The notes under the pieces: model-generated | What the model was told of the DNA's origin: nothing | Database searches by the model: none | The model's input: only the letters and a program-made list of their open reading frames with translations | From: Muribaculaceae bacterium | Lineage (GTDB): Bacteria; Bacteroidota; Bacteroidia; Bacteroidales; Muribaculaceae | Reading direction: 5' to 3' | Assembly (NCBI GenBank): GCA_017557625.1 | Contig: JAFYYG010000069.1 | Span: 1 to 38,561, forward strand | Length of the DNA stretch: 38,561 nucleotides | In this document: positions 3,184-38,230 of the stretch, piece by piece | How the letters are laid out: each line of letters starts with the position of its first letter | Numbering within the stretch: the stretch's first letter is position 1 | Translations under genes and position numbers: made by a program

Positions 3184-4551
3184 TTATCGTTCAATGATTT
3201 TTGTGAAGTCTTTCCATTGTGGAGCGGCCTTGTAGCTGTCGGCTGTGCCGCTGGGAACGTAGAGCGTGCAAGATTTCTTGTCGATTTCGTCAAACACGGC
3301 TTTGCCCATTTTCACGCTGCTCACATCCTCAATATTGCTGGTGAGAGATGTTATAGAATCAAGGCCCTTGAACGCCCATTCGCTAATGGTCGTCACTCCG
3401 CTTCCTATCGTCACGCTCTTAATGTGGTCGTCGTGCAGGAAAGCGCCGTAGCCAATGAACTTGACAGAGTTTGGAATTACAACTGTCTCAAGGCTGTCGC
3501 AGCCGCAGAATGAACGTTCTCCGATTCTTGTCACCGAGTTGGGCAGTTCTATGCTTCTAAGGTTAGTACAATAGAAAAATGCCTGGTCTTCAACTTCGGT
3601 CACCGATGAGGGGATATCAATGTTATAAATATTCTTGAGGCCATAAAATGCCTCGTCGCCAATCTTAGTCACCGAATTGGGGATGACGGTATTGTTGCAT
3701 CCTGCCACAAGCGTGTTGGTGGCAGTCTCGATGATGGCGTTGCAGTTGGTTCTTGAATCATAATTCTTGTTGCCGTTCTCCACCTGCAGAGTGGTGATAT
3801 TGTTGCAATATCTAAATGCTCCATCACCAATGCTTTTTGTGGCGGCTGGGATGGTTACCGATTCCATTCCACCCTCATAGAACGCTTGTGCTCCAATCTC
3901 CTGTAGCGATGCTGGCAGGTTAATGGACTTGAGGCTGGGGCAGATGCTGAACGCCGCATCGCCAATGGTTTTCACCGAATTGCCTAAAGTCGCCTTCTCC
4001 AGCCATCGGCATGCGCTGAATGCCGATTTTTCTATCGTGGTAACCGAGTTGGGGATTTCTATTGACTTGAGCGGACAATTGCTGAATGCCGAAGCGCCAA
4101 TGCGTTTCACCTTTTCAGGAATTTTGATTTCTCTTATGTTGCTCTCGGCAAACATATAGTCTCCAATCTCGGTCAAGTCGGGAGGAAGAACTACATTCTT
4201 CAGACTATAGCATTGTGCAAAAGCACCATTGCCTATGGTTTTTACCGATTTTGGGACTATCACGCTTTCAAGTTCTCGGTTTCCCATAAATGTCTCTCTG
4301 CCAATGGCGGTCACCTTGTAGGTCTTGCCATTATGTTTCACTTTTTCGGGGATAACGATATTGCCCTCATATCCTTTTTCGGATGGCGGTGGAGCGTCGA
4401 GGGCTTGAAGAATCAGGTTCTCGTAGGTGAGAGTCACTGTTTTCCTGTCTTCATTGATGTTGTAGCACAAACCACCCTCTTTGAAGTCGAAGGCGAGTGC
4501 GATTTGGGGCACTAAAGCCATGATTAGTAAAAAAAATAAGTATCGTTTCAT
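3184..4551 (-). CDS. Exported BspA-like leucine-rich repeat protein (LRR_5)
   Basis: This 455-residue protein has a signal peptide (about 1-20, ending ALA). It continues with the N-cap DFKEGGLCYNINEDRKTVTL and about 13 BspA/TpLRR-type repeats of the pattern IPNSVTxIGxxAFxxCxxLxS. Between repeats lies an island, YDSRTNCNAIIETATNTLVA. A C-cap (LYVPSGTADSYKAAPQWKDF) closes the protein. No transmembrane or lipoprotein anchor is seen. The family is known for surface or secreted proteins that bind host matrix or other bacteria; the partner of this one cannot be inferred. It lies between a related LRR gene (98 bp upstream) and the nuclease gene (30 bp downstream), probably one transcript. Confidence 0.9.
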   Translation of the reverse strand: MKRYLFFLLIMALVPQIALAFDFKEGGLCYNINEDRKTVTLTYENLILQALDAPPPSEKGYEGNIVIPEKVKHNGKTYKVTAIGRETFMGNRELESVIVPKSVKTIGNGAFAQCYSLKNVVLPPDLTEIGDYMFAESNIREIKIPEKVKRIGASAFSNCPLKSIEIPNSVTTIEKSAFSACRWLEKATLGNSVKTIGDAAFSICPSLKSINLPASLQEIGAQAFYEGGMESVTIPAATKSIGDGAFRYCNNITTLQVENGNKNYDSRTNCNAIIETATNTLVAGCNNTVIPNSVTKIGDEAFYGLKNIYNIDIPSSVTEVEDQAFFYCTNLRSIELPNSVTRIGERSFCGCDSLETVVIPNSVKFIGYGAFLHDDHIKSVTIGSGVTTISEWAFKGLDSITSLTSNIEDVSSVKMGKAVFDEIDKKSCTLYVPSGTADSYKAAPQWKDFTKIIER

Positions 4552-4649
4552 AGTTGTGAATTTTTTTAGTATTCAGTTTATTGAAAAGTGGTGATAAACA
4601 ATGCAGTTAATTCAAAGTTGTGCATTAGGCGCTGTGCATTGATTTAGAG

Positions 4650-5804
4650 TCATTTCCCTGATATCTTCTTGAATCCGCGCCATTGTTGCGAAACTTTATA
4701 CTGGTTGACAGCATTCTTGGGCACCTCAAGAGTGGCTTTTGATATGTCAACTCCTGAGAAGGCATCCTCATGAAGCGACATGCTGTCGGGAACGTTAACC
4801 ATACATTTTACAGTCTTCAGCCCCAAACAATTGAGGAAAGCGTTTTTCCCTATTGAGGTCACCGTGCTGGGTATGGTGACCTTTTTCAACTTCTGGTTCC
4901 AGCCGAAGGTGGCGTCTCCTATGGCGGTTAGCGTTGATGGTAGGGTCACCTCATTAAGGTCGCAATAGTAGAATGCGTTATCGCCTATTGTCCTTAATGT
5001 GTTGGGCAGGTTTACCGAGCGCAAATTGTTGCAACCCGCGAACGCGCTTTTTCCTATTCTTGCAAGAGCATCAGGAAGCTTCACCGATTTAATGTTATTG
5101 CATTCGATGAAAGCATAGTCGCCAATTTCGGTCACCGATGAAGGTATGTCGATTGACAACATCTCGTGAAAATTGGCGAAGGCAGCGTTGCCAATACTAG
5201 TTACTGAGTTGGGAATCTTTGATGCCATGCAGGCAGTGATAAGTGTGTTGGTCTTGGTCTCAATAATGGCGTTGCAGTTGTCGCGTGAGTCATAAACAGG
5301 GTTGCCGCGATCAACTGTTATCGATTTCATGTTTTTGCATGCGCCAAACAATTGTGTGCCCACTTCGGCCACCGAGCTTGGAATCACAATCTCTTCCATG
5401 TTGGAGCATGAATAAAAAGCCTCGCTATGTATCGAAGTGATGGAATTGGGCAAATCAATCTGTTTAAGGGCTGTTGACCTGAAGGCTGCCGTGCCAATGG
5501 TAGTCACTGTGTTGGGGATTGATATCGACCTCAATTCTACACATTTATCGAATGCCACATTTCCAATAGCAGTAACCATGTAGTTCTTTCCGTTGTGAGT
5601 GACACTGGCAGGAATCACCACATCGCCCTTATAGTCGGTGCTGTAGTTGCGAGGACCTGGGCTTGGCCCATGATTGAATGTGACCTCCACGCTTTTGCCG
5701 TCTTTGAGCTTGTTGTAGAAGATGTTGTCGTTCTCAAAGTCGTAGGCCCATGTCGCTTGAGGAAGCAGAGCTAGGAGAAACAGCAGTTTTAAGTATAGTT
5801 TCAT
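4650..5804 (-). CDS. Exported BspA-like leucine-rich repeat protein (LRR_5)
   Basis: The 384-residue product has a signal peptide (about 1-20, LPQATWA) and the N-cap DFENDNIFYNKLKDGKSVEV. About ten LRR_5 repeats (IGNVAF, IGTAAF, IGDYAF, IGKSAF and so on) follow, with the island YDSRDNCNAIIETKTNTLIT after the fourth. The C-cap is LEVPKNAVNQYKVSQQWRGF. It is paralogous to its two neighbours over its whole length, with fewer repeats than the 455-residue member, which fits gain and loss of repeats after tandem duplication. No anchor is seen, so it is predicted to be periplasmic or secreted. Binding partner unknown. Confidence 0.9.
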   Translation of the reverse strand: MKLYLKLLFLLALLPQATWAYDFENDNIFYNKLKDGKSVEVTFNHGPSPGPRNYSTDYKGDVVIPASVTHNGKNYMVTAIGNVAFDKCVELRSISIPNTVTTIGTAAFRSTALKQIDLPNSITSIHSEAFYSCSNMEEIVIPSSVAEVGTQLFGACKNMKSITVDRGNPVYDSRDNCNAIIETKTNTLITACMASKIPNSVTSIGNAAFANFHEMLSIDIPSSVTEIGDYAFIECNNIKSVKLPDALARIGKSAFAGCNNLRSVNLPNTLRTIGDNAFYYCDLNEVTLPSTLTAIGDATFGWNQKLKKVTIPSTVTSIGKNAFLNCLGLKTVKCMVNVPDSMSLHEDAFSGVDISKATLEVPKNAVNQYKVSQQWRGFKKISGK

Positions 5805-5865
5805 AGTTTTGAGTTGTCAGTTGTCAGTTTTGAGTTTTCAGTAAGTTTTTTGTGTGATAAAAAAC

Positions 5866-6879
5866 TCATTTCGCAACAATATTTTTGAAGTCTTTCCATT
5901 GGTCCGACGATTTATATTTTTCTACTGAATTAGCCGGAACTATTAATTTGCTGTTGGCTTTCACTTGCCATTGGAAAGCGTCTTTTGCAACTTCCATGCT
6001 GTCGGGGTCCTCTGCAAGACATTCTATATACTTCAATCCTGAGGGATAAAACGCCTGTTTCCCAATTGTAGTTACTGTGTTAGGGATTGTTACCGATTCT
6101 ATGTCATAGCAGTAACTAAAAGCCGCCGCTTTAATGGTCTTGAGTGTTGGAGGGAGAGATAACTTCTTAAGATTTATGCAATTACTGAATGCTCCTGCTC
6201 CGATAATAGTTGCCGAGTTTGACATATTCACGGTGCGCAAGTCTTCACAATAGGCGAAGGCGTTATCTCCAATCTCTGTCACCGAATTAGGTATGGTAAT
6301 GGAAGATAGCTTATGGCAATAACTAAATGCTGAGTTGCCAATGCGTGTTACTGTGTTTGGAATCTTGGTCTTGCTGCATCCGGCAATCAGTGTGTTTCTT
6401 GCGGTCTCAACGATGGCATTGCAATTATCGCGCGAGTCATAAACGGGATTGCCTTTCTCAATCTTGATTGAGGTGAGAGCCTCACACCAGGAAAATGCTG
6501 GTTCAATACTGGTAACAGAACTTGGAATGACAATCTTTTTCAACTTGTAACATTGATAGAATGCGTTACCTCCAATACTTGTCACAGTGGAGGGAATAGA
6601 AACCGATGTGATCAGGCATTTTTCAAATGCCCTATAGCCGATAGCCGTGACCTTGTAGGTCCTGCCTTCGTATGTCACAGTTGGCGGGATAACTACTTTG
6701 CCTGAGTATAGTTGCACTTCCTTGTAATCCCCCATGGTGTGCGACTCGGAGTAAAATGTCACTTCCACACTGTTTTCATCAATAAAGTTGTAGTAGATGT
6801 TATCAACTTCAAACTGGTGGGCCGTTGCCACTTGTGGAAGCAGTGCAATAATCAAAAGAAGCCTTAATATACGTATCAT
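5866..6879 (-). CDS. Exported BspA-like leucine-rich repeat protein (LRR_5)
   Basis: This 337-residue protein is the first gene of the LRR/nuclease cluster. It has a signal peptide (about 1-20), an N-cap (VDNIYYNFIDENSVEVTF), about eight LRR_5 repeats, the island YDSRDNCNAIVETARNTLIA and the C-cap LIVPANSVEKYKSSDQWKDF. It is the shortest of the three paralogues. The next gene begins 61 bp downstream. A putative promoter at 7057-7087 would give a long leader of about 170 bases. Identification as an LRR_5 protein is firm; its role as adhesin or binding protein is family-level inference. Confidence 0.9.
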   Translation of the reverse strand: MIRILRLLLIIALLPQVATAHQFEVDNIYYNFIDENSVEVTFYSESHTMGDYKEVQLYSGKVVIPPTVTYEGRTYKVTAIGYRAFEKCLITSVSIPSTVTSIGGNAFYQCYKLKKIVIPSSVTSIEPAFSWCEALTSIKIEKGNPVYDSRDNCNAIVETARNTLIAGCSKTKIPNTVTRIGNSAFSYCHKLSSITIPNSVTEIGDNAFAYCEDLRTVNMSNSATIIGAGAFSNCINLKKLSLPPTLKTIKAAAFSYCYDIESVTIPNTVTTIGKQAFYPSGLKYIECLAEDPDSMEVAKDAFQWQVKANSKLIVPANSVEKYKSSDQWKDFKNIVAK

Positions 6880-29578: not shown

Positions 29579-30517
29579 TCATTTCTTTTCGTTGAGCTTT
29601 TTGAGATAAATGGCACTGTAGATGTCGCCTTTATCTGCGGCGATTTGAAGCAGCGATTTTGCTTTCTCGATATCTTTCTCCACTCCGTAGCCTTTCTCGT
29701 AGCAGATGGCAAGGTTGTAGAGGGCTTCGACATATTCTGTCTTGGTGGCCATTTCCAGCCATGGTATGGCGTTCTCATATTTCCCCTCGTTGAAGTAAAT
29801 GGCAGCGATGTTGTTCATGCCTCCTGGGTGTCCTTGCATAGCTGCTTTCTCAAACCAGTAGGCAGCTTTCTCTATGTCTTGTTCCACGCCTTCACCATCT
29901 TGATAAAGCAGTCCAAGCTCGTTCTGTGAGCGTGCGAAGCCTTGTTCGGCGGCTTTGACAAACCAGGGGAAGGCTTCCTCTGGCATTCCCTCGTTATAGT
30001 AATACACTCCCAACTCATGCTGTGCGAGGATGAGTCCAGTTTCGGCAGCGCGGGTGAGATAGTCGAGGGCTTTGTCCTCATCGACCTCTACACCAGTGCC
30101 CATAGCATAGCACAGGTACAGACCGCGCAATGCCACAGGGTCGTCCTGGTCGGCTGCTTTTTGGTACCAATATACCATCTTTTGCTCGTCAACATCCACG
30201 CCCTCGCCGTTAGCATAACACACCGCCAGGTCACATTGGGCTTGTGGATGTCCCTGCTTGGCGGCCTTGGTGAACCAATATACCGCCTGCTTGTCGTCTT
30301 TGTCCACGTCATATCCGTTGAGATAGCAGTTGCCTAGCTGGTACTGAGCCTCGGCATCGCCTTTTTTTGCTTGTTTGTAATATTTCTTTGCTTGGCCGGT
30401 CAGTTCAGAGCTAACAGTTGCCGACTTTGGGTGTGCGGTAGTAGCAGAATTGGCATCGACACAAGCGGTCAACGCAAATAATGCGAGCACTAATAATTTA
30501 GGACTTAAAAGTTTCAT
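29579..30517 (-). CDS. Sel1-repeat lipoprotein
   Basis: The 312-residue protein begins with a lipoprotein signal (MKLLSPKLLVLALFALTAC, Cys19 as the acyl site). About seven Sel1-like (SLR) repeats follow, of the form AxxxLGxCYxxGxGVxxDxxKAxxWFxKAAxQG, from about residue 40 to 305. Sel1 repeats are TPR-like helix pairs that usually carry protein-protein contacts. The partner is unknown. The gene lies just downstream of the metacaspase-like gene on the same strand but has its own upstream element (30549-30582), shared with the small lipoprotein gene on the far side of the CHAT operon. An envelope-attached scaffold is a reasonable inference. Confidence 0.88.
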   Translation of the reverse strand: MKLLSPKLLVLALFALTACVDANSATTAHPKSATVSSELTGQAKKYYKQAKKGDAEAQYQLGNCYLNGYDVDKDDKQAVYWFTKAAKQGHPQAQCDLAVCYANGEGVDVDEQKMVYWYQKAADQDDPVALRGLYLCYAMGTGVEVDEDKALDYLTRAAETGLILAQHELGVYYYNEGMPEEAFPWFVKAAEQGFARSQNELGLLYQDGEGVEQDIEKAAYWFEKAAMQGHPGGMNNIAAIYFNEGKYENAIPWLEMATKTEYVEALYNLAICYEKGYGVEKDIEKAKSLLQIAADKGDIYSAIYLKKLNEKK

Positions 30518-30631: not shown

Positions 30632-30665
30632 CAAAAACTGGGAGCGAAAGATTGACTTCCGCTCC
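30632..30665 (-). terminator. Terminator of the CHAT/metacaspase operon
   Basis: On the minus strand GGAGCGGAAG pairs with CTTTCGCTCC (one G-U pair) around TCAAT, followed by CCAGTTTTTG. It lies about 90 bases after the metacaspase-like stop codon. Confidence 0.75.
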
Positions 30666-30753
30666 TCTGAAAAAGCAATTATTATTGAACTATTATATTG
30701 TGACAGGCATCCAATGTTTCAAGACTGGTTTTCCACTTGCCTTTGAGCTGTCG

Positions 30754-31983
30754 CTAATGCATGAGGTCACTCTCATTGGTTTCTTTAACTGGCGTTTGAC
30801 AATCCCAAAGCGGCGGATTGTTCTCCTTGTGATTAATGACAGCATTTGTCAGTTTGTCAAAATCAATCTTCTCACCTTTCTTGAGATTCGCCAACTCTCG
30901 ACAAAGAGCAAAGGACAACGAGCCATACTCGCGGTCTTTCACACCTAATGCACCTGCTTCGTCTTTATATTCATAATTTACCTCAGTTGATTTGCAGGCA
31001 CTTAATGCATAAAAATGGGAGATGTATCTTGGTTTTTTTGCTTTGCTCTCATCATATTTTTTATATAATTTATCGAGTTCTTCGGATTGAAAATAATCTC
31101 CCGTGCGTATTTTTGTGTTCTTATGTTTTTCCCCATTTTTTTTATTATCACCAAGAGTTGCATTTTCACTATGGCAAGCGTCAAGAGTTACCAGCAAAAC
31201 ACCATTAGCTCCTATCTTGTTGGTTATAGCAATGATGTAATCATTGATTTCATCGTCTTTTAAATGATTCTGTGCCATATTATACTCTTTGGTAGGTTTT
31301 TTTAAAGCATCAAATGGGATAAAAGTTTCGGTCTTATTGTCTTTTTCATCACCTACTATATCTACTATTTGCTGTCCATGACCAGAGAAATGAACAATTA
31401 ATGTGTCGCCTGGATGACAACAGTCTTTAGCGGCAAGAGTGTTTAGGGCATTTATAATTCCGGCATGGGTGGCAGCTTCATCGGTGATAGTTACCACCTT
31501 GAAATCCAATGCTATCAAATGCTCTTGCAGCAAGGCGATATCATTAAGTGAGCTAAGATCGTCCCAGCCAGTATCTTTATTCCCACCTCTGTGTTTGGTG
31601 TAATTTCCCACACCTATGAGCAGTGCCTTGCGTTTAGAATTCTGGAAGTCTTTGCTGGTAAGGCTTGTCTGGCTCTCCACTTTAGTAATAACCAGTTCTT
31701 TATATTTTGTGGCTGCGGCTATAATGGCGTCATTTGAATCATTTTTAAGCACATTATCGTTATCAGTGACAACTGAATCCACCGAGCTATTCCCGAGGAT
31801 CGTCTGCTCTTGTGCTGATTGAGTTCCATGAGTGTCGCTTGAGTCAGTATTTCCTCCCTGATTATTGCACGACAAAGCCAGCATTGCAAAGCATAGCATC
31901 GCTGCGATGCCGCACAACATGTTTCGTTTTCTGCTCTCTGTTGCCAATTTGTTTGTTTGCTTATTTTTTTTTTTTGCTCTCAT
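30754..31983 (-). CDS. Lipoprotein with caspase-like (metacaspase-type, C14) peptidase domain
   Basis: The 409-residue protein starts with a basic n-region (MRAKKKNK...SRKR), a hydrophobic stretch and the lipobox LALSC (Cys39). A Ser/Thr/Asp-rich linker to about residue 115 follows, then a caspase-fold domain. It begins KRKALLIGVGNY and has HFSGHGQQ with His202 and LDACHSEN with Cys270. DIVGDEKDN and LKDDEINDYI are typical of metacaspase-type enzymes, which cut after Arg or Lys; that specificity is inferred here. It is encoded 36 bp after the CHAT protein gene. A 12-base A-run covers codons 3-7, a possible slippage site. An alternative start at Met22 would avoid the run but would lose the positive n-region. 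Confidence 0.87.
   Translation of the reverse strand: MRAKKKNKQTNKLATESRKRNMLCGIAAMLCFAMLALSCNNQGGNTDSSDTHGTQSAQEQTILGNSSVDSVVTDNDNVLKNDSNDAIIAAATKYKELVITKVESQTSLTSKDFQNSKRKALLIGVGNYTKHRGGNKDTGWDDLSSLNDIALLQEHLIALDFKVVTITDEAATHAGIINALNTLAAKDCCHPGDTLIVHFSGHGQQIVDIVGDEKDNKTETFIPFDALKKPTKEYNMAQNHLKDDEINDYIIAITNKIGANGVLLVTLDACHSENATLGDNKKNGEKHKNTKIRTGDYFQSEELDKLYKKYDESKAKKPRYISHFYALSACKSTEVNYEYKDEAGALGVKDREYGSLSFALCRELANLKKGEKIDFDKLTNAVINHKENNPPLWDCQTPVKETNESDLMH
31964..31975 (-). repeat. A12 homopolymer inside the metacaspase-like gene
   Basis: Twelve A residues on the coding strand span codons 3 to 7, just after the start codon. Runs of this length are known to be slippery for polymerases. A change of one base would shift the whole frame. 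Confidence 0.85.
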
Positions 31984-32019
31984 AATAATTATAGATTAAA
32001 ACATTGAATTATCTTTTAT

Positions 32020-35000
32020 TTATTCTTCTAGCGCATCAAGCAAGATGAAGGCCGCCCAGTGAGGCCCCTTATGCTCTTTGTCATCATATTCGTTGCCATA
32101 TATCCTCTTTACTTCTTTTTGCGCTTCGACAAAAGCTTTACGCATACTACAATTTCTCTTCCAGTTCATAAAGAACGTTCTCATAAATGTTTTTGTGGCT
32201 TCATTGTTAACAGTCCAAAGACTCATTATGATGCAATGCGCTCCCGCTTTTTTGAATCCGCGCTGCAGGCCGAAAACGCCATCGCTGCCTATCTCGCCCT
32301 GGCCCGTCTCACATGCGGCGAGAACTACCAGTTCCAAACCGCGCAAGTCCAGATCAGCCACCTCCATCGCTGTGAGTACTTCGTCATCAGCATCAGGAGG
32401 ATCTATAGTCTCGCCTCTACGAACGTGATTGCCCCCACTAAAGGCCAACCCGCAGCAGGTCATGGGATCAAATATTGTGTCATTCACTACACTTTGATGG
32501 TTATCAGGATATTTTGATAGTCTAAAGCTCGCTTTTTCCTTTTTTGCACTTTCGTTGTCCCAATAGAAACCATGAGTATGGAAAACTATTACTTTCTTCT
32601 CTTTTCCGCTAAGCAGCTTTACTGAAGTCTCGTTAGCCTTTTTGTCATTTCTTAAATCAACAGTGTATTCTCTTTTAAGCAATTCTTCTTCAATGTCCTT
32701 GACAAGAGCGACCCCTGCATTTTTCCAATCGTCGCCGAGCGCCATAGTGGCAATAGGCTCTGGAAGACGGGAGCCAATGCCGAGGTCATTATGCGCCACA
32801 TCTTCAGGTGATTTATTCTTCGTAGGCTTCTTGTCAATTGCTGGGGAGTTCTCTGCTTTTAGTTCTTCAACAATCGACTTGATCTCGCAATCATAATCCA
32901 TCCCGCCATATAATACAGCTTCGTTGCATTCAATTTCCTTGTGTTTTATTACCAACTCACGGGTAGATGACAGGCGGTAAATGCTAAAACAAGTGTCGCA
33001 CATCAGCACATCAGGATTCTCCCAGTGTGGCAGCGACTCAATTGCGATGGTGTGAAGCAAGCCGCTTGGAGAGAAGTAGATGGTATCGACTCCATTTAGT
33101 TCTTTTGCTAGTGGTTCCCAAATCAACTTGCTCAACGCATTGCTGGTATATGCATCTTTCATTGCAGCCTTTAAATCCTTCTCCTCACATAGAAATGTCA
33201 TTTTAGGCTCTCGATAATCGTCGTTATTACGAATTGTCAAAGCAATATAGACAGTGTCATTGGTGCCAAGTTTAGGGAAAGATAGGAACTCTATGGCGAT
33301 GCTTTTGTCTTTGTCACCAAGATTCTTTTTAACATCTGTCCATTCCGTTTTAAGGATTTGCAAATAGTCATCGTCATAGCGTTCCATTGCAAATTCAAAT
33401 AATTCTTGCTCCAATTCATCTGTATTTTTTTTATTAGTCGTTGTTAGCAGTTTATGGTACTTTGCTATTAGATTCGGATTCCCACTATCAAGGATTATTC
33501 TGCGCCACTCGTTTTCAGATGTAAGTAGCAATCCTTTTGCAAATAGCGCACATTTATTGTACATGTCTCCTCTTATATCGTTATAGTTAAGTCCCATTTC
33601 TTCTTTATGCTTATAAACCTCCCATGCAACTGCGGGGTAATGATATTGAAACAACTTTGACTGATTATACCAATAACCAGCACGATCTGTTTCGTTTCTG
33701 ATGTTATTGAAAACGCGAATGATTTCTTTTTGTTCTTTATCAAGTGTTTGTCTGAAAATGCCATAAAACGACTTTAAGTCATCATCAGATGGCTTGCAAA
33801 GGCTAATGATTTCACACAATATTTTGATTTTTTGATGATAATAACCTATCAATGGATTATTTTCATCTAAGAATTCTTTTCTACATATTGTCATAGCCTC
33901 TTGATAATAATACATTGCACTAACAGTGTCATGATTGGCATAATGACATTTGCCAATCATCCTTAATACATCAATTTTAGTTTTGTGAAAGTCATCATCG
34001 GCATCTTCTATTTTCTTAAAATATTTAATCGCTTCGTCATAGTTCTTTTTGTTATAATAGCAACATCCAAGACTGTATTGCAGCCTAAATGGGGATTCTC
34101 CGTTTATATCTTTATAAATTTTATCGGCTTCTTCAAGTTTTTCTATTGCCTTATCACACTGATGATTATTGTTGTGACAACCAGCAATAATTTCGAGTGC
34201 TTCAGCTATTTTACGACTTGCTGATTTTTCATCGGATTTTAACTTTTCATAATACAAACTATTATCCGACATATTTGCCAGTTCAAGGCGGATTTGTTCT
34301 TTCGAATCCTCTAATAATTTGATGAATTCTTCAAAATTGTTTATTGCGTCATCAAACTGTTGTTTGTTATAATACAAATCAGCAATTTTATAATACAAAT
34401 CAGCAATATCATCATTATTCTCTCCAGATTGTGCTCTTGTTATTCTTATGGCCTCGTCAAAAAAATTTTTTGCTTCAATATATTCCTCATTCTCAATAAA
34501 ATATTTGCCAATTTCCATCAAATATTGAGAAATATTGCAATAAAGATATAAATCTGTGTCTTTTGTGATTTTGTTGTTTTTACATAATTCTAAGACTTTT
34601 TTATAATGATACTTTGCTTTGTCATATTGCTTAATAGCATCATAACATTTGGCAACATAACGATGAAAATCGATTAAACTTTTATCGTCCCCTTGTGTGT
34701 TTTCTTTTATCTTTATTGCAGCTTCATAACAGAGAAGAGCTCTATAATAATCCTTATCTATAGCATAATAATACCAACCAAATCTAGTCATTAAATCATA
34801 ATTAGCAGGGTCTGCAAAGAATTCTGGGATTTGCATCATAAGATTTCTTATCTCTTTTCCTTTTGCCTCAATGACATTGTAAGGTAGGTTACTATAACGT
34901 AATTGTTCAAATTGATGCTTCAGAGAGTCAAGATTTTGAACAGGAGTTGTTTCATACATATCTCCATAGTCATATTCAATTATGTTAGTGAAGTCATACC

Positions 35001-37566
35001 AAGGACACGTGTCCTTATATAAATGACTGGTGTTAATTGGAACATAAATTTTGCAATTATCCTTATTCACGTTCTTAAATATAGAGATCTTATGATCCCT
35101 GCCAACATGTCCATTTTCATACCCAAATACATTTCCACCATATAAATAATTGACATTTTGGGGTTCTCTAATCATTGAATAAATAGACTCCAAACCAGAA
35201 CAACCCCAGAAAGCCGTTGCAATCTTTCGCACAGAGTTAGGTATGGTCACCTTAGTCAATCCGGTGCAACCCTCGAAGGCAGCATGGCCAATTGATGTCA
35301 CCGAGTTTGGTATGGTCAATTCACCCGTCAACCCTGTGCAACCCTCGAAGGCACTGTCGCCAATTTCTATCACCGAGTTTGGTATGGTCAATTCACCCGT
35401 CAATCCAGTGCAACCATTGAATGCATCATCGCCAATTACTATTACTGAGTTGGGTAAGGTTAGTTCTCCTGTGAACCCCGTGCAACCCTCGAAGGCACCG
35501 TTGCCAATTACTATCACCGAATCTGATATGGTCAATTCACCTGTCAACCCCGTGCAACCCTTGAAGGCACTGCTGCCTATTTCAATCACCGAGTTTGGTG
35601 TGGTCAGTTTTCCTGTCAATCCTGTGCAACCAGAGAATGCACTACTGCCAATCCTTGTCACCGAATTGGGAATAGTCAATTCTCCTGTCAACCTAGTGCA
35701 ACCCTCGAAGGCATTGTTGCCAATTTCTGTTACCGAGCTTGGAATGGTCAATTCTCCTGTCAATCCCGTGCACCCCTTGAAGGCATTGTCACCAATAGAT
35801 GTAACTAAATATGATTTGCTTTTATATTCAACTCTTTCAGGTATGACAAGTTCTCCATCTAAGTTGCTATAATTGTTTGTAGAATAATTTATTGTAGAAT
35901 CATTATCTGATTCCTCGAAAGTAACGACAACACTTTCCTCGTCATCGCAAATTTTGTAACAAATGCCATCGACCTTGAATGCACCTTCAACGATGTTAAG
36001 GATGAAATTCTCTTTCAAATTATCGCAACCAGTAAATGCATTTCTAAATAATGTGGTGTTTGGATTTTGGACGGTTACAGAAGTTAAGCCATTGCAACTA
36101 CAGAAAGTACCTTCTCCAATCCAAGTCACAGATCTTGATATTGTCACTGATGTCAAGCCAGAGCAACCAGAGAAAGCGTAACTGCCAATATCTGTCACAG
36201 AGTTGGGTATTATTAATTCACCTGTTAGGCCAGAACAACCATAGAAGGCGTGTGAGCCAATTGTTTTCACCGATTTAGGGATGTTTATCGAGGTTATGCC
36301 TGAGCATTTATGAAAGGCATAATCGCCAATCGATGACACAGAGTTGGGGATAGTCACCGAAGTCAACCCGGTGCAACCACTGAAGACTCCCTTGCCAATC
36401 GATGTCAACGATTTGAGGATGTTTATCGAGGTCAAACTACTGCAATCCTTGAAGGCCTCTTCGCCAATCTCTGTCACAGAGTTGGGTATGGTTAATTTGC
36501 CTTTTAAGCCAGAGCAGCCATAGAAGGCGGACGAGCCAATCCTTTTTACCGATTTAGGGATGATTATCGAGGTTAAGCTAGAACATTCATAGAAGGCAGA
36601 TTCGCCAATTTCTGTCAATGTGTTGGGTAGGTTTACCGAAGACAACCCTGTGCATCCATAGAATACCTGGTAGCCAATCGAGGTCACCGAGTTTGGTATG
36701 GTCAACTCACCTGTCAAGCCGCTGCAATTATAGAAGGCAGATTCGCCAATCGATGTCAATGATTTAGGGATGGTCACCGAGGCCAAGCCACTGCAAGATT
36801 CGAAGGCACCGTCATCAATCTCTGTCACAGAGTTGGGAATAGTCATAGAGGTCAATCCAATGCATCCATGGAAGGCGCCATGGCCAATAGTAGTCACCGA
36901 ATTGGGGATAATAGTATTATTGCACCCTGTGATTAGGGTATTAGATTCGGTCTCTATTATGGCATTACAATTGCTGCGAGAATCATATTTTGAGTTCCCA
37001 TTCTCAACAACAATTAAGGTTAGGCCATTACAACCCACGAAAGCACCGTGGCCAATCGATGTCACTGATTTGGGGATGACCACAGATGTTAAATTACTGC
37101 AATCACTGAATGCACCGTTGCCAATCGATGTAACGGAGTTGGGGATAGTCACCGAATTTAAATTTTTGCAAAGGTAGAATGCCCCTATTCCAATCGATGT
37201 CACTGATTTGCCGATGCTCACCGATGTCAAGCCACTGCAATCACAGAAGGCTCTTTCGTCAATCGATGTCACCGAGTTGCCGATGGTCATCGTGGTCAAG
37301 CCACTGCAAGAATAGAAGGCACTTTGGCCAATAGATGTCACCAAATATGATTTTCCATCATTTACAACATTCTCAGGAATAACAATATTTCCGCTTAGAT
37401 TACTATAATTCTTTGTGAAATGATCTTCCGAACTCTCGAAAGTTACAGTAACACTTTTTCCGTCTTCGTTGATGTCGTAACAAATGCCGTCAACCTTGAA
37501 GTCGTATGCAAAAACATTTACTGAGAATGCCAACAAAATAGCGAGTAAAGTTAATATCTTCTTCAT
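32020..37566 (-). CDS. Exported LRR-LRR-TPR-CHAT protease fusion protein
   Basis: The 1848-residue product starts MKKILTLLAILLAFSVNVFA, a signal peptide; an in-frame extension to 37695 has no export signal and is rejected. Module 1 (about 21-527) has the N-cap DFKVDGICYDINEDGKSVTV and about 17 LRR_5 repeats with the island YDSRSNCNAIIETESNTLIT. Module 2 (about 528-865) repeats the N-cap (FKVDGICYKI) and has about eight repeats plus the C-cap. TPR-type helix pairs follow (about 920-1225, for example YDKAKYHYKKVLEL and YDEAIKYFKKI). The CHAT domain (about 1410-1848) has HTHG with His1665 and AACETGQG with Cys1752, both catalytic residues of this caspase-related clan. First gene of an operon with a metacaspase-like lipoprotein. 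Substrate unknown. Confidence 0.9.
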   Translation of the reverse strand: MKKILTLLAILLAFSVNVFAYDFKVDGICYDINEDGKSVTVTFESSEDHFTKNYSNLSGNIVIPENVVNDGKSYLVTSIGQSAFYSCSGLTTMTIGNSVTSIDERAFCDCSGLTSVSIGKSVTSIGIGAFYLCKNLNSVTIPNSVTSIGNGAFSDCSNLTSVVIPKSVTSIGHGAFVGCNGLTLIVVENGNSKYDSRSNCNAIIETESNTLITGCNNTIIPNSVTTIGHGAFHGCIGLTSMTIPNSVTEIDDGAFESCSGLASVTIPKSLTSIGESAFYNCSGLTGELTIPNSVTSIGYQVFYGCTGLSSVNLPNTLTEIGESAFYECSSLTSIIIPKSVKRIGSSAFYGCSGLKGKLTIPNSVTEIGEEAFKDCSSLTSINILKSLTSIGKGVFSGCTGLTSVTIPNSVSSIGDYAFHKCSGITSINIPKSVKTIGSHAFYGCSGLTGELIIPNSVTDIGSYAFSGCSGLTSVTISRSVTWIGEGTFCSCNGLTSVTVQNPNTTLFRNAFTGCDNLKENFILNIVEGAFKVDGICYKICDDEESVVVTFEESDNDSTINYSTNNYSNLDGELVIPERVEYKSKSYLVTSIGDNAFKGCTGLTGELTIPSSVTEIGNNAFEGCTRLTGELTIPNSVTRIGSSAFSGCTGLTGKLTTPNSVIEIGSSAFKGCTGLTGELTISDSVIVIGNGAFEGCTGFTGELTLPNSVIVIGDDAFNGCTGLTGELTIPNSVIEIGDSAFEGCTGLTGELTIPNSVTSIGHAAFEGCTGLTKVTIPNSVRKIATAFWGCSGLESIYSMIREPQNVNYLYGGNVFGYENGHVGRDHKISIFKNVNKDNCKIYVPINTSHLYKDTCPWYDFTNIIEYDYGDMYETTPVQNLDSLKHQFEQLRYSNLPYNVIEAKGKEIRNLMMQIPEFFADPANYDLMTRFGWYYYAIDKDYYRALLCYEAAIKIKENTQGDDKSLIDFHRYVAKCYDAIKQYDKAKYHYKKVLELCKNNKITKDTDLYLYCNISQYLMEIGKYFIENEEYIEAKNFFDEAIRITRAQSGENNDDIADLYYKIADLYYNKQQFDDAINNFEEFIKLLEDSKEQIRLELANMSDNSLYYEKLKSDEKSASRKIAEALEIIAGCHNNNHQCDKAIEKLEEADKIYKDINGESPFRLQYSLGCCYYNKKNYDEAIKYFKKIEDADDDFHKTKIDVLRMIGKCHYANHDTVSAMYYYQEAMTICRKEFLDENNPLIGYYHQKIKILCEIISLCKPSDDDLKSFYGIFRQTLDKEQKEIIRVFNNIRNETDRAGYWYNQSKLFQYHYPAVAWEVYKHKEEMGLNYNDIRGDMYNKCALFAKGLLLTSENEWRRIILDSGNPNLIAKYHKLLTTTNKKNTDELEQELFEFAMERYDDDYLQILKTEWTDVKKNLGDKDKSIAIEFLSFPKLGTNDTVYIALTIRNNDDYREPKMTFLCEEKDLKAAMKDAYTSNALSKLIWEPLAKELNGVDTIYFSPSGLLHTIAIESLPHWENPDVLMCDTCFSIYRLSSTRELVIKHKEIECNEAVLYGGMDYDCEIKSIVEELKAENSPAIDKKPTKNKSPEDVAHNDLGIGSRLPEPIATMALGDDWKNAGVALVKDIEEELLKREYTVDLRNDKKANETSVKLLSGKEKKVIVFHTHGFYWDNESAKKEKASFRLSKYPDNHQSVVNDTIFDPMTCCGLAFSGGNHVRRGETIDPPDADDEVLTAMEVADLDLRGLELVVLAACETGQGEIGSDGVFGLQRGFKKAGAHCIIMSLWTVNNEATKTFMRTFFMNWKRNCSMRKAFVEAQKEVKRIYGNEYDDKEHKGPHWAAFILLDALEE
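35240..35810 (-). repeat. 69-bp tandem DNA repeats encoding LRR module 2
   Basis: Eight 69-base units (23 codons each) encode CTGLTGELTIPNSVxxIGxxAFEG-type repeats. Neighbouring units are nearly identical at the DNA level, much closer than the units of module 1, which suggests recent amplification or gene conversion. Confidence 0.85.
36060..37340 (-). repeat. Tandem LRR_5-encoding repeats of module 1
   Basis: About 17 degenerate 69- to 72-base units encode IPNSVTSIGxxAFxxCSGLTS-type repeats, interrupted once by the island at about 36900-37010. Units differ more from each other than in module 2. These are protein-coding repeats, not an array of spacers. Confidence 0.85.
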
Positions 37567-37615: not shown

Positions 37616-37623
37616 CAAATATA
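37616..37623 (-). promoter_or_regulatory. Putative -7 box of the CHAT/metacaspase operon
   Basis: Minus-strand TATATTTG matches TAnnTTTG about 50 bases before the preferred start at 37566. No good -33 box is seen at the usual distance, so the promoter may be weak or activator-dependent. If used, transcription would start downstream of 37616, which also rules out the longer reading frame to 37695. Confidence 0.5.
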
Positions 37624-37735: not shown

Positions 37736-38230
37736 TTATATAGAGTCGCAAGTTGCGATGGTTTGGGTGGCGTTGGGTGTGGTGTTGTCATCGGTTGTTG
37801 TCGCATCAAGCGTTGGGTCTGAATTTTCAGGAACAACTGGTCCTACTGTGTATGGAATAAGTGTTGGTGAGTTCAAGTCCTGAAATAATATATGTGAGTC
37901 TTCAATTATCTTCATCATCTCATTATGCCTCTTTATCATTTCTTCCTGTTCTTTCAGAAATTCCTGTGACTGTCCTATATTAATTTCAGGAGAAGTCACC
38001 TTTGGAATGGCGTGAATAGATGGAACTTGTGCACTACCTGTTGATCCGCTGGAATAATCATTGTTTGCTATACCTGCATTTTTTGGAGCCATGCTTGCGA
38101 TTTCAACCTCTCCAGTTGCGCCGGAGTCGTTGCAAGAAACCATATTAACTAAACCAATGATAAAAGCGAAAGGCACAGCCGCAAAAATTAGCGCTGCGAG
38201 TGTCTTAGTGAATTTTGTAGTTGTCTCCAT
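37736..38230 (-). CDS. Small putative lipoprotein of unknown function
   Basis: The 164-residue protein has one hydrophobic segment (about 10-32) ending MVSCNDSG. Cys33 is a plausible acylation site, although Met at -3 is a weak lipobox. The rest is low in complexity: a Gly/Ser/Ala-rich stretch, a short charged helix (about 90-112, QEFLKEQEEMIKRHNEMMKI) and a Thr/Asp/Pro/Asn-rich tail. No family is recognised. It lies upstream of the CHAT operon on the same strand but is separated from it by a terminator, and shares its upstream element with the Sel1 lipoprotein gene. If the cysteine is not acylated, it would be a single-pass membrane protein. A stalk, spacer or scaffold would fit, but this is speculation. 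Confidence 0.7.
   Translation of the reverse strand: METTTKFTKTLAALIFAAVPFAFIIGLVNMVSCNDSGATGEVEIASMAPKNAGIANNDYSSGSTGSAQVPSIHAIPKVTSPEINIGQSQEFLKEQEEMIKRHNEMMKIIEDSHILFQDLNSPTLIPYTVGPVVPENSDPTLDATTTDDNTTPNATQTIATCDSI

Follow-up and report, generated by a model that had tools for sequence, protein, structure and literature searches.

Proteases of the caspase clan have been connected with bacterial sigma factors in several ways. In Craspase, the type III-E CRISPR system, a CHAT protease acts on the inhibitor of an ECF-like sigma factor, according to the cited part of its description (PMC10028731). RseA and RsiW, transmembrane anti-sigma factors that are cut outside the cytoplasm, are named there as well (PMC10028731). 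SAVED-CHAT, from a type III-B system of Haliangium ochraceum (structure 8tl0), is presented in the sections referred to here as a CHAT protease starting a proteolytic cascade (PMC11229360), and in the corresponding sections on CalpL/CalpT/CalpS a protease cuts an anti-sigma factor and an ECF sigma factor is freed (PMC11417357). Operons of metacaspase and sigma-70 genes, in Myxococcus and others, were listed in 2012 (PMC3501461, section 13). EACC2-caspase-ECF-TPR clusters were described in 2021 (PMC8195603), and ECF54 has been reported with CHAT in its gene context and discussed as lacking an anti-sigma factor (PMC8999054), in both cases in the sections cited.

Genes for an ECF-type sigma factor, a one-transmembrane (TM) anti-sigma-like protein, a metacaspase-like protease and a TPR-CHAT protease, the two last predicted to be exported, cluster in many relatives of the Muribaculaceae bacterium considered here and on one of its own contigs, C57. 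A further pair of such protease genes, designated A and B, lies on another contig (Table 1).

The protease pair and its copy in the same genome

The window, meaning the whole stretch of DNA analyzed, is contig C61 (38,561 nucleotides) of genome G000 (3.05 Mb, 88% complete), and it ends 995 bp upstream of gene A. The first-pass annotation had described adjacent genes for two different caspase-clan proteases with 36 bp between them, and the coordinates and Pfam agree with it; both genes are on the minus strand. The catalytic dyads lie where it had placed them, His1665/Cys1752 being invariant across 32 aligned TPR-CHAT proteins and His202/Cys270 in an alignment of 15 caspases chosen independently of any motif. 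Export signals had been claimed for both proteins, and both have N-termini predicted to be of the export type. Possible signal peptides on bacterial metacaspases had been remarked upon in 2012, in the part of that paper cited here (PMC3501461). Of the one −7 box and one terminator claimed to flank the pair, a box was recognized by eye, and a terminator-like hairpin lies after B; the hairpin is weak evidence, the scan giving 5 such sites against 6.4 in shuffled sequences. The box was assigned on what we take to be the Bacteroidota consensus.

Table 1. Features of the protease pair, in window coordinates
Feature	Position	Strand	Basis
Gene A, predicted exported LRR-TPR-CHAT protein, 1848 aa	32020..37566	(-)	ORF translation, Pfam
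BspA-type leucine-rich repeats (PF13306) of A, ~residues 21-870, tandem units of 69-72 bp	34957..37506	(-)	Pfam
TPR array of A, ~residues 902-1300	33667..34863	(-)	Pfam; AF2 model
CHAT protease domain (PF12770) of A, residues 1475-1842	32041..33144	(-)	Pfam; dyad alignment; PDB fold matches
His1665 codon of A	32572-32574	(-)	
Cys1752 codon of A	32311-32313	(-)	
−7 box TATATTTG of Bacteroidota type, preceding A	37616..37623	(-)	By eye
Gene B, predicted exported metacaspase-like protease, probable lipid anchor, 409 aa	30754..31983	(-)	ORF, Pfam, signal by eye
Spacer A-B, 36 bp, resembling the 35-bp spacer of the C57 copy	31984..32019	(-)	Alignment
Peptidase_C14 domain of B, residues 117-380	30844..31635	(-)	Pfam, AF2
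His202 codon of B	31378-31380	(-)	
Cys270 codon of B	31174-31176	(-)	
Linker loop of B after catalytic Cys, residues 274-300	31084..31164	(-)	Alignment, AF2
Pocket-type residues of B: D148, S200, D268	Within Peptidase_C14 domain		Alignment
Terminator-like hairpin and T tract after B	30641..30665	(-)	Hairpin scan

The mechanical open reading frame of gene A opens at a TTG 43 codons 5′ of the ATG at 37566, which is the likely start. The protein then begins with a predicted export-type signal, followed by leucine-rich repeats (LRR_5, 3.2e-198), TPRs and a CHAT domain that matches its family at 1.9e-34 (119.9 bits against a cut-off of 24); these were the only Pfam domains above cut-off, and no SAVED domain was among them. 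An AF2 model of residues 895-1848 (pLDDT 80.8) consists of helical repeats and then an alpha/beta region. In gene B the caspase domain alone exceeded its Pfam cut-off (PF00656, 1.5e-18, 67.8 bits against 21.4), and the fold and dyad are those of the metacaspase/Peptidase_C14 family. It fell below the cut-off for EACC1-associated caspases (NF047832, 34.2 bits against 140). For B, the AF2 model (mean pLDDT 78.7; linker residues 274-284 below 50) has GSU0716, plant metacaspase 9 and MALT1 as best matches, and a profile reached PDB metacaspases at 1e-20. The model of A has the Craspase TPR-CHAT chains as its top PDB fold matches. DdvA, a transmembrane anti-sigma factor of solved structure, was rejected as kin of TPR-CHAT: it stood at ranks 8 and 11 among the fold matches, with an rmsd of 29 and TM scores of 0.24-0.28, and a CHAT-only profile retrieved no PDB chain at 0.01 and did not reach DdvA even at 10. 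Gene B encodes a signal helix with an ALSC lipobox, seen by eye and presumably an imperfect version of the textbook motif; its product is probably a lipoprotein.

Other genes of the window were recorded in passing. A 164-aa one-TM protein without a Pfam match is encoded upstream of A (37736-38230, minus strand); its TM segment resembles by eye that of a protein beside a CHAT gene in locus L036 (6001-6516), with no phmmer link. A Sel1-repeat lipoprotein gene lies downstream of B (29579-30517, minus strand), and Sel1-type genes occur within ~2 kb of CHAT genes in L029 and L036 as well. Three tandem BspA-type LRR genes occupy 3184-6879 (minus strand), where a 126-bp stretch (3658-3783) is 73% identical to the LRR coding region of A. 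Gene A has 117 match segments across its own genome, mostly to the LRR part.

Three B-like genes and four TPR-CHAT genes were found in this genome. Contig C57 carries a close-packed run of sigma, anti-sigma, caspase, TPR-CHAT, TPR-CHAT and caspase genes, then a BspA LRR gene. Window positions 30747-33335 are 77% identical in DNA to the end of this run over 2605 bp, spacer included, and B is 81% identical in protein to its C57 copy. Judged by these alignments, the window pair is a diverged duplicate of the end of the C57 run to which an LRR front was added. It looks conserved by selection, since dN/dS between B and the copy is ~0.28 (dN 0.116, dS 0.409). The window itself contains no sigma or anti-sigma gene, and the one anti-sigma homologue found in this genome is on C57. 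The −7 box of the C57 sigma gene is by eye an ordinary one and gives no sign of autoregulation. Just upstream of this gene are two small proteins with signal-like starts (L012, 4365-5063 and 5397-5984), the first belonging to a cluster present in 4 loci. The fourth TPR-CHAT gene (contig C22) has no caspase and stands beside a gene for a patatin-like lipoprotein; in L013 (2898-4383, minus strand) a patatin-like and a small lipoprotein lie directly downstream of a caspase-free TPR-CHAT gene, both observations being by eye.

Gene neighborhoods in relatives

Relatives of B were found in 12 of 61 genomes and relatives of the CHAT protein in 23 (E 1e-5). That homologues of the two genes might stay adjacent in relatives, as the first-pass annotation had proposed to examine, was borne out: 11 of 14 caspase matches outside the own genome had a CHAT gene within 10 kb, against an expectation of ~0.007 per 20 kb (68 match segments in ~189 Mb), and the other three were on contigs of 3.6, 4.0 and 5.2 kb. 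The pairing of caspase and CHAT genes is not due to chance, since it recurs in the own genome and in relatives. Sigma and anti-sigma genes were nearby in 10 of the 14.

A larger set was collected with the pattern [VI]HFSGHGQ, and the best 80 of 163 loci, all from Bacteroidota judging by titles, were surveyed; L048, L050 and L063 duplicate contigs already included elsewhere in the analysis, some loci share a genome, and many flanks end at contig ends. Within ~9 kb of the caspase, these best 80 of 163 loci had a CHAT gene in 58, a sigma gene in 55, an anti-sigma gene in 54, and sigma and anti-sigma together in 52. By gene set, the same best 80 of 163 comprised 40 loci with all four genes, 16 with caspase and CHAT and neither sigma nor anti-sigma in reach, 12 with caspase, sigma and anti-sigma and no CHAT, 3 with caspase and sigma, 2 with caspase, CHAT and anti-sigma, and 7 with caspase only. 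For sigma and anti-sigma, the loci counted were also those from which the HMMs had been made and refined by iteration (E 1e-3), and a few of the matches are weak (sigma in L091, 1e-4) or fragments (L126). The ECF models TIGR02937/TIGR02985 matched 3 of 3 sigma proteins tested; with TIGR02937 (cut-off 42.9), L114 scored above (54.8), the C57 copy just below (41.6) and L055 well below (22.3). Anti-sigma models gave below-cut-off matches in 2 of 3 proteins tested and none in L114, and the anti-sigma role is a predicted one, for which the location beside the sigma gene and the single TM segment also speak.

Two further kinds of locus were noticed. A family of ~232-aa proteins (L052 5862-6554 and similar), lipoprotein-like in L052, occurs in 10 loci, each time less than 500 bp from the module, and is possibly a fifth part of it. 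In other Bacteroidales families (L165, L167, L168, L170, L171, L173, L174 and L177) an anti-sigma homologue accompanies a CHAT gene with no caspase in reach, possibly a simpler form of the system.

A home-made hydrophobicity rule for export, crude in that it was also positive for 196 of 531 other ORFs of at least 300 aa, was positive for 89 of 93 caspases, 70 of 80 CHAT proteins and 0 of 61 sigma factors. No CRISPR array was found in 103 loci by a simple repeat scan; the repeat matches in L117 and L119 were spacer-less tandem repeats and were discarded as a CRISPR link. These results bear on the idea of an anti-phage or cell-death module like the CRISPR- or STAND-linked caspases. Caspase and CHAT proteins are common in defense, the distribution over genomes is patchy, and the PADLOC ‘caspase’ model matches B at 1.7e-11. 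Export-type signals, the lack of arrays in the scan and the plain domain content of A and B (LRR, TPR, CHAT and caspase) speak against it, and we consider it very improbable.

With the window's own LRR as probe, by which other LRR types would be missed, 4 of 84 CHAT proteins showed LRR fusion, all in three genomes belonging to the same genus as the window, and the LRR was discarded as a general sensor. The first-pass view that the pair acts outside the cytoplasm with the LRR as sensor fared unevenly: the export signals and the retained adjacency favor it, but LRR sensing is not general and the sigma/anti-sigma context had been missed. One could suppose that the window genes make up a self-contained surface or periplasmic system whose LRR binds host, diet or neighbor ligands, whose proteases process surface or incoming proteins, and whose sigma link is gone. 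The absence of a sigma gene from the window, the LRR fusion, the many BspA-type LRR matches in the genome and the loss of the exact Arg-Gly in B (see below) would agree with this, as would L033, which has a similar LRR-TPR-CHAT and caspase pair without sigma on a contig that stops 426 bp past the caspase. Yet the same genome retains close copies of the two genes in a run that includes sigma, and the sole anti-sigma homologue found in this 88% complete assembly belongs to that run; we regard such independence as quite unlikely.

Arg-Gly motifs in the caspase linker and the anti-sigma tail

The Cys motif was located in 96 of 98 caspases, and 92 of the 96 have an Arg-Gly 10-45 residues after the Cys. 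Among 78 distinct segments the pattern is R-G-[TVS]-x-[DE]-x-F, with T/V/S in 65, D/E in 50 and F in 70; in loops with more than one Arg-Gly, the pick was biased towards one with T/S/V/A/G, D/E and a hydrophobic residue in set positions, which affects these counts. The linker Arg-Gly is missing from four caspases, among them B and its C57 copy, which have R-TG and R-STG, B reading R293-T-G-D-Y-F at the place of the pattern. The residues D148, S200 and D268, which we take to be the pocket from their positions in known metacaspases, are present in at least 90% of the 15 caspases not selected by motif. D148 and D268 are invariant in 36 caspases chosen by [VI]HFSGHGQ, a choice that builds H202 and S200 into that alignment and from which the 15-sequence alignment is free. 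The acidic residues suggest a pocket suited to Arg. A single caspase, that of L041, lacks both the pocket acids and the loop Arg-Gly, as expected if the two serve one function.

Anti-sigma proteins (E <1e-15) numbered 64, of which 61 were unique and 53 non-redundant. They are highly diverged (mean column identity 21% in a 34-row alignment), with a basic-rich first part and, in 56 of 61, a single predicted TM segment followed by a tail; five were below threshold. The tails vary in size, the shortest having ~50 aa and others forming a larger domain that is TPR-like in part. An Arg-Gly within 60 aa after the TM segment is present in 40 of the 53, whereas 1000 rounds of shuffling 70-aa tails gave 9.8 of 53 on average and 19 at most. 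The Arg-Gly is retained in the ~50-aa tails of L053, L055, L067, L073, L078, L112 and L124. Of 20 homologues that have no caspase in reach, 4 carry it (Fisher 2.7e-5 vs. 40/53); 12 of the 20 lack a CHAT gene in reach as well, and 2 of those 12 carry it; over 70 aa of tail the figures are 5 of 20 and 3 of 12. These 20 controls were picked by hand after some tails had been viewed and include close relatives, so the Fisher values overstate independence. Weaker homologues outside the control set (L149-L154, L156 and L157) had no Arg-Gly in the tails displayed. Where a caspase but no CHAT gene is in reach, 10 of 11 anti-sigmas have the motif, and where both are, 30 of 42 do. By these counts the anti-sigma Arg-Gly appears to go with the presence of a caspase. 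At a comparable position R-S, R-D or R-G occurs in several homologues without a caspase, which weakens the motif as a caspase-only feature and is the reason why the Arg may predate the caspase link. The C57 anti-sigma has Arg-Ser, not Arg-Gly.

The anti-sigma motif shares with the caspase linker the R, the G and a D/E at +4 (26 of 40); the F is found in 7 of 40 only. In L055 the caspase has VVRGVEDIFEA and the anti-sigma QMRGGDEVFSP, and in L079 the two are VVRGVEDIF and HIRGVKEIF. Motifs of caspase and anti-sigma resembled each other more closely within a locus than in shuffled pairs (38 loci, p 0.0017), in a test that ignores descent, that carries the bias in picking caspase sites described above, and for which the sites in L037, L079 and L109 were set by hand as the last Arg-Gly. 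Because this likeness occurs together with conserved pocket acids, we infer that the caspase may cut both itself and the anti-sigma. The CHAT protein was dropped as a conserved caspase substrate, no common Arg-Gly position having been seen in 84 CHAT proteins.

It might be argued instead that the sigma factor controls the proteases and not the reverse, caspase and CHAT being envelope-stress effectors, for quality control or self-damage, beside their regulator. The module genes are clustered, in many cases tightly and in the same orientation, stress regulons often contain proteases, and the sigma-less window pair could be effector genes under another promoter. Such an arrangement leaves unexplained why the anti-sigma Arg-Gly tracks the caspase and resembles its linker, and why it is kept in tails of ~50 aa. 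We find it rather unlikely.

A proposed envelope cascade and its relation to known systems

We put at about an even chance the reading that duplication gave rise to the window pair as an LRR-bearing branch of a Bacteroidales envelope module in which the caspase frees a sigma factor by cutting the anti-sigma, with TPR-CHAT upstream. Since sigma and anti-sigma genes lie near the caspase and CHAT genes, they are the likely output and target. An extracytoplasmic ligand or condition would be sensed by the TPR-CHAT protein, here with its LRR, which would then dock to the caspase or cut it and so activate it. The caspase, whose pocket would suit a basic residue, would process itself at the linker Arg-Gly and cleave the anti-sigma outside the cytoplasm at the membrane-adjacent Arg-Gly, and further proteolysis at the membrane would release the sigma factor. 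The window pair would add an LRR-defined input to the system in trans, or would have acquired its own substrate; another substrate is conceivable because B, the C57 copy and the C57 anti-sigma are all without the exact Arg-Gly. The lipid anchor might also place the caspase at the outer membrane, apart from the anti-sigma.

More broadly, and tentatively, at somewhat short of an even chance, gut Bacteroidales may possess a CRISPR-free envelope cascade from TPR-CHAT to metacaspase to anti-sigma, with a caspase as ECF site-1 protease and LRR-fused duplicates that widen sensing. If so, caspase-type signaling outside the bacterial cytoplasm would serve as a switch from sensor to transcription, and the CHAT/caspase-to-sigma logic of CRISPR systems would exist without CRISPR too. 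Exported bacterial caspases, for which no assigned role was found in the literature examined, would gain a candidate role. The prediction can be tested at one residue, the Arg in the anti-sigma tail.

Craspase (Cas7-11/Csx29 TPR-CHAT, Csx30 and CASP-sigma, of CRISPR type III-E) is RNA-guided and cytoplasmic and is not known to include a separate caspase. It resembles the present system in that its TPR-CHAT protease, similar in fold to the model of A, acts on a sigma inhibitor, as far as the parts of its description cited above extend. It differs in that here there are export signals, a second protease, a TM anti-sigma and no CRISPR array by simple scan. The SAVED-CHAT system, reported by Steens in 2024, is said to have a PCaspase partner and adjacent sigma genes; SAVED-CHAT and PCaspase are cytoplasmic. 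Theirs is a SAVED domain sensing cyclic nucleotides and a CRISPR/CBASS link, whereas A has no SAVED domain above cut-off. Cleavage of an anti-sigma to free an ECF sigma is common to CalpL, which in the sections cited is a Lon-type, CRISPR-linked protease. The sigma-70 metacaspase operons, the EACC2 clusters and ECF54 likewise have caspase or CHAT genes beside sigma factors, but the cited parts of those papers describe no combination of a TM anti-sigma with caspase and CHAT proteins that are both exported. Compared with RseA/DegS and RsiW site-1 proteolysis, the proposed site-1 protease here is of the caspase type.

The first-pass annotation had known of no described system of this kind. The open-access literature searched indeed yielded no account of caspase and CHAT proteins that are both exported and accompanied by a transmembrane anti-sigma, but the action of a CHAT protease on the inhibitor of an ECF sigma factor (PMC10028731) and metacaspase operons with sigma-70 (PMC3501461) were already on record in the sections cited, and the earlier interpretation as a whole is partly supported. 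The logic that joins CHAT or caspase proteases to sigma factors is itself known; its exported, CRISPR-free pairing with a transmembrane anti-sigma, whose mechanism is a proposed one, appears from the gene content to be new.
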